Of a DNA stretch of 22,671 nucleotides, positions 8,516-21,579 are shown piece after piece. The notes beneath the pieces were generated by a model. The model was not told where the DNA came from and did not search any database. It saw nothing but the letters and a program-made list of their open reading frames with translations. The translations under genes were made by a program, and so were the position numbers. Each line of letters starts with the position of its first letter. Position 1 is the stretch's first letter. Source of the DNA: a virus. The DNA is taken from the IMG/VR virus record IMGVR_UViG_3300044911_000139, positions 1-22,671 of that record, one strand, 5' to 3'.

Positions 8516-8541
8516 GAGGGGGTGGGGCAACCTGCCCCCTC
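8516..8541 (+). promoter_or_regulatory. Strong GC-rich hairpin after the major capsid gene
   Basis: GAGGGGG (8516-8522) pairs with CCCCCTC (8535-8541), with a 12-base loop that can itself form GGGG/CCCC alternatives. It begins 15 bases after the capsid stop. The next bases are TCTACTAAAGGAG, not a T-run, so full intrinsic termination is doubtful. A 3'-end mRNA-stabilising or partial-termination role, keeping capsid mRNA more abundant than downstream genes, is plausible. Confidence 0.6.
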
Positions 8542-18138: not shown

Positions 18139-18712
18139 TTACCCTAACTGGTTTTCAATCTGGGCAGAGGGATACTTTAAGGATCTACTATCTGAGTTCA
18201 AGGGCAAAGAGAACCTTAAGTTCTTACAAATAGGTGCCTTCACAGGTGATGCCAGTCTATGGATGGTTAAGAACATACTCACCCACCCAAGCTCCATCCT
18301 TACGGATGTTGATACTTGGCAGGGTTCAGACGAAGAGGTTCATCATGCGATGGACTTCTCAGATGTCGAAAGAGTCTATGACTCCAAGCTAGGATTCAAC
18401 AGCAATGTCGTCAAGGTTAAGATGACAAGCCACGATTATTTAATTACAGCAGATGAAAAAGATTATTACGATTTCATCTACATAGACGGAGACCATACTG
18501 CTGATGCAGTATTCAAAGATGCTTCGCTCTCTTGGAGAGCGTTAAAGCCCGGTGGAATAATGGCGTTTGATGATTACACATGGGAGCCACAGCTCCCAAT
18601 GCATCTAAGACCACAACCAGCCATCGATCTATTCGTCACCCTCATGAAAGATCACATCGACTTGATAAGGACTGGCCCACAAGTATGGATAAGAAAAAGG
18701 TTTACAACTTAG
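18110..18712 (+). CDS. Class I SAM-dependent methyltransferase, 200 aa
   Basis: The SAM-binding glycine motif is [14 protein letters not shown] (residues 38-51), followed by the acidic end of the second strand (TDVDTW, 65-70), and then [11 protein letters not shown] (119-129) and [16 protein letters not shown] (143-158), as in Methyltransf_24/O-methyltransferase-like proteins. Length and motif order fit the family. The substrate is unknown; sugar, protein or small-molecule methylation are possible. The start ATG is the only early one, and it lies inside the previous gene (29-base overlap); the C-terminus overlaps the next gene by 28 bases. A weak AAAGG lies about 11 bases before the ATG. Confidence 0.85.
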
Positions 18713-20184
18713 TAGCCATAGTATTTTTAATCGGAGGTACATCGTTCTGGCTAATGCCATCTGCTAATGCAGCTCAGGGTAATGCCAATGTTGTATGCAG
18801 CAAGTCAGATGGAACTCAGCAATCGTTCCAAATTGGTTGGGATAATAGTCAGCCATTCTTTGCAGACAAAGGATATATCCCTCGCCTATTTTGCGAAGGT
18901 GGTTATGCACAAGGCTTTAATACTTATGTTAGTGACGATCTTTACGATTCTTCTTTGGGTTACTATAACGGCGTATCACCGACACCAACACCAGAGCCAA
19001 CAGCAACCCCTGAACCAACTCCATCACCATCTCCTAGTCCGACAGTAGAGCCGACTCCAGAGACCTCGCCTCAACCTCAAGAAACTTCAACCGCTGAAGC
19101 GAGTCCTTCACCTTCTCCAGAGACGACTCCAACCGAGCAACCCTCAAGTCAGCCCACTCCGGAACCGACTCCGACAACAGAGCCTTCTCCCGATACTGCA
19201 ACAGCAACTGTTGCTCCGAGTACAAACGATACTGCAACTCCAGTAACTGAGACTTCAACTGCTCCGTCAACAGATCAACCGACATCTTCTACCCCTTCCG
19301 ATAGTACGAATAGTACACCTGTTAATGAACCGGCAACAGAGCCTGAACCAACTCCGGCTCCTGTAAGTCCTGAGCCGACCCCTGAACCTGCACCCGTTCC
19401 CGTGACACCGGAGCCATCCCCGGCTCCAACACCTCAACCTGAGCCTCAACCTCAACCAACTCCGCAGCCAGAGTCTGCTCCGGTTCCTGTTCCAAGTCCG
19501 GAACCACAGCCAGTACCCGTTCCTCAGCCGGAACCTGCACCAGCCCCACAGCCAGAGCCAGCTCCAGCACCTGCTCCCGAACCTGCTCCATCTCCAGAGC
19601 CGTTACCCGAACCACCTGCTCCAGAGCCTGAACCAGAAGCTCCAGCACCTGAACCAATTCCCGATCCAGAGCCTTTGCCTGAACCTGTTCCTGACCCTGA
19701 ACCATTACCGGTTGACCCTCTTCCAGAGCCAGAACCTCCAGTTATGGAGGAACCAGTTCCAACTGAGCCAACCCCTGAAGTCGAGCCAGAGCCTGTACCA
19801 CAGCCTGAAGCTGAAGTCCTTCCTGAACCTGAACCAAATACTCATGAAGAAAATGTTACACCTGAAGTAGTGGTAATCACGGAAGACACGGACTTAGAAT
19901 CATTAGATCCACAGACTCCAGTACAACTGGAGAATGGCGTGATCCTTACAGCTGAGGTAGTCATTGCACTAGAAGTGTTGGGTAATCCAGCAGATCTAGT
20001 AGCGGCAATCTTTACAGACCCTACTCAAGCTCTCATGGCACTAGCCAATGTCGGTGCCGATATGTCACCTGAAGCAAGAGAAGAAGCCGAAGATGTAATT
20101 GTTGCAGCGGTAATCGCTGGCAACATCGCAACCCAAGCAGCGGCATCAGCCGCAGCTGCAGCAGCTTATAGGAGGAACCCATGA
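18685..20184 (+). CDS. Secreted proline/glutamate-rich protein, 499 aa
   Basis: ATG 18685 is chosen because it begins a clear signal peptide: MDKKK, a hydrophobic core ([15 protein letters not shown]) and an A-N-A cleavage site after residue 29. An earlier in-frame ATG (18580) would put a charged 35-residue stretch in front of it. Residues 30-97 form a small domain with two cysteines (C38, C70), possibly a disulfide. Residues about 98-384 are Pro-Glu-Pro-x repeats interspersed with Thr/Ser, expected to be an extended rigid rod. Residues 385-499 are an acidic, Ala-rich helical domain ending in a poly-Ala run. No sortase motif is seen. It lies just before the holin and endolysin genes, with ATGA coupling. 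Function is unknown; a wall-spanning lysis or superinfection protein is possible. Confidence 0.75.
18979..19843 (+). repeat. Pro-Glu-Pro repeat region
   Basis: Degenerate PEP-x-P units fill about 290 codons of the secreted protein. Codons for Pro (CCA, CCT, CCG, CCC) and Glu (GAG, GAA) alternate irregularly, so the repeat is not a simple DNA slippage product. The mirror pattern creates long false open frames on the other strand. Confidence 0.8.
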
Positions 20185-21371: not shown

Positions 21372-21423
21372 GTTGCCTAAAACTACACCGGCAGAAGAGC
21401 TTTAAGAAATGCCCCCCTACCCC

Positions 21424-21439
21424 CCATAAAAAATTATGG
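21424..21439 (+). promoter_or_regulatory. Small hairpin with A-tract loop next to C-tracts
   Basis: CCATAA (21424-21429) pairs with TTATGG (21434-21439), loop AAAA. It is preceded by two C-runs (GCCCCCC and TACCCCCC), and the following GGTGGTTGGG could pair with these C-runs in part. No T-run follows. Its role is unknown; it lies between the terminator and the larger structured element. Confidence 0.4.
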
Positions 21440-21442
21440 TGG

Positions 21443-21526
21443 TTGGGTGCTACACCGTATAGTGTCGCCTTGAAGTTTCTGCCCCACCTCTTACGAGGTA
21501 GGCGGACAATAGCACGACACACCCAA
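21443..21526 (+). ncRNA. Candidate structured leader RNA
   Basis: The DNA folds by eye into a nested, branched structure. P1: TTGGGTG (21443-21449) with CACCCAA (21520-21526). A small side hairpin CTA-loop-TAG (21450-21462) is inserted on the 5' side. P2: TGTCG (21463-21467) with CGACA (21515-21519), abutting P1 on the 3' strand. After an internal loop, P3: TCTGCC (21478-21483) with GGCGGA (21501-21506, one G-T). After a CC/A bulge, P4: ACCTC (21486-21490) with GAGGT (21495-21499), capped by TTAC. In total 23 base pairs in 84 bases, with no open frame. It matches no riboswitch I recognise. It lies in the leader of the genes that follow. Confidence 0.55.
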
Positions 21527-21543
21527 GATTGGGAAATGCACGA

Positions 21544-21579
21544 ATGATGTCGGTGGGAGGTGCCACACTTAAGCCATGA
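21544..21579 (+). CDS. Possible leader ORF coupled to the 121-aa gene, 11 aa
   Basis: ATGATG at 21544-21549 opens a short frame, MMSVGGATLKP, that ends at TGA 21577-21579. That stop overlaps the ATG of the next gene (21576) as ATGA, the same coupling used in the late operon. The 121-aa gene itself has no ribosome-binding site at normal distance (GGGAGG is 15 bases away, inside this frame). A leader peptide and re-initiation would explain this. Coding is unproven, since any frame this short can be chance. Confidence 0.35.
   Translation: MMSVGGATLKP

Follow-up and report, generated by a model that had tools for sequence, protein, structure and literature searches.

A predicted structured RNA of freshwater actinobacterial viruses carries two G-rich modules that change in concert

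The stretch of DNA analysed here (the window, 22,671 bases) is the complete virus record IMGVR_UViG_3300044911_000139, which is possibly a fragment of a phage genome. Its minus strand very probably carries, at 21376-21500, a gene for a structured RNA, as judged from the covariation among its homologues. The RNA is found in more than 120 viral contigs, with one copy in each, and two of its distant segments share a module, GGGGC-R-N3/4-C-YY, of which the variable bases covary by identity. Identity covariation of this kind is unusual, and it is the most surprising result of the analysis. Phage noncoding RNAs as such are known; this RNA family and its concerted double module are new, and the class is widespread among relatives of phages whose hosts rank among the most abundant bacteria of fresh water.

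The window belongs to a tailed phage, in which a major capsid protein, an endolysin and a glycosyltransferase are the recognised families. Relatives of its capsid protein and of a large virion protein are found in Streptomyces Beephvirinae phages, and the isolates that come closest by having a related gene for the glycosyltransferase (55% identity) are the phages E7 and F5 (OX376640 and OX376641), both of which were isolated on 'Ca. Planktophila' LanE-43 (PMC10202952). From this relationship, a freshwater actinobacterium belonging to the Nanopelagicales is the most probable host of the window phage. The RNA is apparently carried by many freshwater viruses of actinobacteria. Directly after the major capsid gene (8518-8539), the window has the hairpin-forming sequence GAGGGGGTGGGGCAACCTGCCCCCTC, with the only other G5/C5 runs of the window, which looks like a processing site or a partial terminator. 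Near the endolysin, an open reading frame at 18580-20184 includes a long proline/glutamate-rich repeat region of the PEP type.

When read in the minus sense, the element starts with an extended -10 box and the hairpin H1. These are followed by motif 1 (GUGGGGCRGAAACYUCAA), by a segment that varies, by a hairpin with GGGGGGUAGGGGGG at its end, and by motif 2 (CRUUUCYUAAA). The predicted 5' end is near 21499 and the 3' end at or after 21376, which is as far as the conserved block reaches in homologues (approximately), giving an RNA of about 120-150 nt that starts at H1. The extended -10 box (TGcTATTGT, 21506-21514, minus strand) lies about 7 nt upstream of H1. A TAnnnT box is present 12-32 nt upstream of GUGGGG in all 88 members, compared with a mean of 35 in shuffled sequences, and it is exactly at -22 in 57 of them; a promoter-like box of this kind would suit a free-standing sponge or decoy transcript. 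No promoter was detected in a scan for consensus -35/-10 pairs. On the other strand (21557-21576), the 121-aa gene at 21576 begins a few bases after CACACTTAAGCC, which is conserved in homologues. The gene is therefore possibly leaderless and read from a promoter of its own that points away from the promoter of the RNA.

H1 (ACCUC-GUAA-GAGGU, 21486-21499, minus strand) is a GNRA tetraloop hairpin for which about 15 different paired stems occur across the members; of 88 members, 69 have GAAA, GCAA or GUAA as the loop, and two (L131 and L196) have UUCG. It is followed by the near-invariant hairpin H2, which is also motif 1 (GGGG-CAGAAA-CUUC, 21472-21485, minus strand); it is predicted by RNAalifold from 50 sequences, and 100% of its cells are paired in the model-aligned sets described below. 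The long-range helix P2 is formed by ACUAUAC (21457-21463) and GUGUAGU (21382-21388), both on the minus strand; in L206, ACUACAC is found opposite an unchanged partner. P2 encloses the hairpin P3 (ACCACCAU..loop..AUGGGGGGU, 21419-21443, minus strand), of which the inner stem pairs covary and the loop-closing pair is UA in 58, AU in 25 and CG in 5 members. The double G-tract (GGGGGG-UA-GGGGGG, 21412-21425, minus strand) is followed by motif 2 (CAUUUCUU) with the pyrimidine strand GCUCUUCU (21393-21411, minus strand). In the phage type of the window, this pyrimidine strand can pair with the second G-tract, as seen in the minimum-energy fold of L003, which is identical to the window. A terminator-like hairpin on the 3' side of the RNA is present in only 10 of 88 members. 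No conserved open reading frame was found in the RNA, confirming the absence of an open frame reported in the first-pass annotation; a short frame ending at the TAG between the G-tracts is open in L216 but broken in others, and it was discarded.

The homologues were retrieved by two pattern scans, one for each end motif, which each returned at least about 120 stretches. Many of these are true members, although the use of exact motifs biases the sample. A covariance model (R1) trained on 14 sequences from a different phage type, with the type of the window left out, matches the window at 21379-21499 on the minus strand (64.4 bits, E 7.7e-12), and a second model (R2) matches at 21379-21500 on the same strand (95.8 bits). 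Among 94 distinct rows, 91.5% of the cells are standard pairs and two-sided changes are found in 18 of 29 pairs. The covariation score is 0.309, compared with 0.147 for shuffled and at most 0.114 for slid alignments, these 94 rows having been aligned to the covariance model and thus leaning toward it; a second, largely separate set, likewise model-aligned, gives 0.352 compared with 0.149. RNAalifold alone recovers H1, H2 and parts of P3. For P2, where all eight pairs have two-sided changes, a swap test that is independent of any alignment was carried out by exchanging the 3' segments among 11 divergent groups, and the true pairings were the best (permutation p = 5e-5, the smallest attainable value).

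The strand of the RNA is also visible in these data. When the same fold is read on the plus strand, the share of standard pairs is 78.5% instead of 91.5%, owing to 421 cells with G-U, and the GNRA loops and the promoter are present only on the minus strand. The tolerance of G-U pairs, the GNRA and UUCG loops and the position of the TAnnnT box together identify the minus strand of the window as the RNA strand. The same signatures, namely the compensatory changes with one-strand G-U tolerance, the GNRA loops and the correctly spaced promoter, stand against a DNA element (an origin, a packaging site or an att site) with direct repeats. Two direct repeats evolving in concert at a module border would fit such an element, but this explanation is largely refuted and is considered highly improbable. 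An att or tRNA-derived site was also considered and rejected, as there is no tRNA and no host or plasmid match.

The fold proposed in the first-pass annotation was on the plus strand at 21443-21526, with four nested helices, a coaxial P1-P2 junction and a side hairpin. This 84-mer folds with -29.8 kcal/mol (z -3.18), and its minus-strand counterpart with -31.5 kcal/mol (z -2.15). Since only 2 of 200 shuffled sequences fold equally well, the plus-strand fold survives the shuffle test, which concerns the single sequence only. Comparison with 17 distinct homologues gives a different result. Of the 27 pairs, a compensatory change is found in one only, which belongs to the small inner hairpin; P1 has standard pairs in only 72% of the cells, without compensation; the lower side stem is broken in up to half of the homologues; and the covariation is 0.064, compared with 0.053 after shuffling. 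Because the pairs fail and the covariation is close to the shuffled level in these homologues, the proposed P1 and coaxial junction are judged to be single-sequence artefacts, and so is most of the side stem. Compensating base changes are thus lacking for most of the plus-strand structure, which was rejected on these 17 homologues with the exception of the inner hairpin; the latter is genuine, but it is a GNRA hairpin when read on the minus strand. There is indeed strong structure at this site, as had been proposed; the strand, the boundaries and most of the helices were wrong. The interval of 84 nt splits the RNA, including the -10 box and the 5' half and omitting the G-rich 3' half (21376-21442).

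The two modules are contained in motif 1, GGGGC-R-GAAAC-YY, and motif 2, GGGGGGC-R-UUUC-YY. All 127 scorable members have the same YY in both motifs, and each of the 113 among them that have a purine in motif 1 also has the same R in both; in the other 14 members, of a CU type, motif 1 has GC instead of CR and motif 2 has A. On a tree calculated from the remaining positions, which contain little sequence, there are about eight changes of YY and at least five of R, and no one-sided change of YY. The mutual information between the two R columns amounts to a full bit (78 rows), and no column with a pattern complementary to R was seen in the alignment. Watson-Crick pairing between the modules is excluded, because the segments covary by identity. 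What such covariation requires is an external partner common to both segments, or else a direct contact of like with like.

Every complete member has two G runs (5-8 G each, with a linker of 1-3), and this holds also for the members retrieved by motif 1 only, whereas the P3 strand opposite the G-tracts drifts among C, U and A. Since the G runs persist while the opposite strand drifts, the G strand appears to be kept by more than pairing in cis. A G-quadruplex was considered and rejected: when quadruplexes are allowed, ViennaRNA gives the same helical fold in four members, and the quadruplex is not energetically favoured.

It is possible, though rather improbable, that the RNA is an intramolecular switch or an RNA catalyst, in which motif 1, motif 2 and the G-tracts would swap partners (H2, P3, a GAAA/UUUC loop-loop contact and a downstream helix P4), possibly with self-cleavage. 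Mutually exclusive pairings do exist, and many type B members have a strand further downstream with which motif 2 can pair, but this downstream strand is not universal, and none of the known ribozyme models of Rfam matches the RNA. In type B loci such as L253 (3988-4124 and downstream of it) and L042, the possible pairings are GGCAUUUCUUA / UAAGAAAUGCC and GUUUCUUAAA / UUUAAGAAAC, in which the downstream strand follows the R base, in many phages and not in all.

Among 35 large records searched, 18 have the RNA, in one copy per record, and all 18 are viral contigs. A match in L291 (a Deltaproteobacteria MAG) consists of the G-tract motif alone, without a covariance-model match, and was taken as chance. 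By blastn, no homologue of the RNA was found among the INPHARED cultured phages, and E7, F5 and two Streptomyces Beephvirinae phages have no covariance-model match. E7 and F5 share with the RNA-bearing type C phages a syntenic flank, and in E7 (L292, about 31430-31630, compared with L204, L077 and L225) the type C flanks occur with no RNA at the site between them. A 185-aa open reading frame on the other strand occupies this spot in L048.

In the loci examined, the RNA lies between two modules, the late one and the early/DNA one that comes next, and its orientation relative to the neighbours varies, the module being inverted with respect to the late operon between phage types. The downstream gene differs between phages, being on either strand or absent in the direction of the RNA. 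It had been suggested that the element sits in the leader of the next genes as a riboswitch or leader regulator. In the window, the direction of the RNA leads away from the gene for 121 aa at 21576, and the RNA is convergent with the late operon, so that only the late-operon terminator lies in its direction, and a constant position before a consistent same-strand gene, as is typical of riboswitches and leaders, is not found. A riboswitch, leader or attenuator acting in cis on a neighbouring gene is therefore very unlikely; a same-strand gene is found 35-200 nt downstream in type B phages, but a leaderless promoter of their own is apparent for some of the following genes. The variable orientation and neighbours, the relatives without the RNA and the absence of a conserved open reading frame argue for a mobile, dispensable gene whose RNA would act in trans and not as a cis-regulator.

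In many phages, the RNA adjoins a gene for a Cas4-like exonuclease (phrog_1870). This is in agreement with a structural or regulatory RNA in which the two modules bind a phage or host protein, such as a nuclease, an RNA polymerase or an RNA chaperone, and in which the G-tracts are a P3 strand only; a dimeric protein reading two equal sites would also explain the identity covariation. Such a role is possible but on balance doubtful. In the type A phages, among them close relatives of the window, the RNA occurs without phrog_1870, other relatives have the exonuclease without the RNA, and no protein cluster tracks the presence of the RNA when 12 positive and 10 negative genomes are compared, which is a small sample. 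In several phages, phrog_1870 itself is split into slightly overlapping open reading frames of about 61 and about 200 aa, each corresponding to half of the profile (L077, 5165-5353 and 5346-5948; L292, 31712-31897 and 31881-32489), possibly expressed via translational coupling or frameshifting. Just upstream of the split gene in L292 (31633-31688) there is a conserved 18-nt inverted repeat, TTACATAGTTCTCCCTTA / TAAGGGAGGACTATGTAA; it is similar in type C loci (L077, L055, L061) and present with or without the RNA.

The reading that is preferred here, tentatively and at somewhat less than an even chance, is that the RNA is a decoy with two copies of one module, which would tie up one host factor. 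A protein decoy would be expected to have multiple copies of one module, and this RNA has two, in which R and YY follow one another; their binding is putative. The RNA would be transcribed from its own extended -10 promoter toward the late-operon terminator, and it would fold into a GNRA hairpin, a G-rich hairpin and a long-range helix enclosing a third hairpin, possibly with a GAAA/UUUC loop contact. As a free-standing RNA acting in trans, which its variable context suggests, it would present both modules to the same factor, which would be sequestered during infection. The partner is probably encoded by the host, because no phage protein cluster tracks the RNA in the small set of genomes compared and the only complementary sites in the window are those of the element itself, without a second C6 site. 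The leading candidate would be the actinobacterial 6C/B11 small RNA, with C-rich loops that could pair with the G6 runs carried twice by the phage RNA; a dimeric host RNA-binding protein would be the alternative. In 6C/B11, two C-rich loops repress targets via a run of six guanosines, one of the two loops being enough (PMC10470900); 6C RNA is widespread in Actinobacteria (PMC9569102). That the phage RNAs are a new actinophage class disarming the global host regulator 6C or an equivalent, with two co-evolving G-rich mimics whose concerted change is driven by the partner sequence, must be regarded as unlikely; if 6C RNA is the partner, the phage would be using an RNA to attack a regulator that is conserved in actinobacteria. 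Two points could weigh against the decoy: pairing of the G-tracts in cis with the pyrimidine strand could be their whole role, and the identity covariation could result from a direct non-canonical contact between the segments. If instead both segments respond to a partner, the identity covariation predicts that they contact the same one.

Phages and prophages are known to encode sponges of small RNAs and anti-sRNAs, in which a viral RNA titrates a host small RNA or an RNA-binding protein. The titration logic proposed here is the same, with a putative target, but those RNAs are not known to have the fold, the double G-tract or the concerted repeat of this phage RNA. In decoy RNAs of the CsrB/RsmZ type, repeated modules serve one dimeric factor; the phage RNA differs from these in that it has no series of GGA motifs in loops and only two modules, which are placed within a long-range fold. 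When compared with Rfam 15, no family reaches the gathering cut-off at the element in the window or at 15 other loci (the best sub-threshold match has 17.4 bits, with a cut-off of 37), so that the first-pass view that the RNA belongs to no recognised family holds, and no relatives were found in Rfam or in the open PubMed Central papers searched. GOLLD, ROOL and other ornate RNAs associated with phages are conserved structured noncoding RNAs of phages and aquatic metagenomes (PMC12286853); the phage RNA is about 5-fold smaller and has no Rfam match to GOLLD or ROOL. The 6C RNA (RF01066; B11 in mycobacteria) is a trans-acting small RNA of actinobacteria, and the phage RNA bears G6 runs, the kind of tract with which the 6C loops are known to pair (PMC10470900). 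RF01066 has no match in the window record, and the predicted transcribed strand of the RNA gene is G-rich and not C-rich; the relation between the two RNAs is a reverse one, with different folds.
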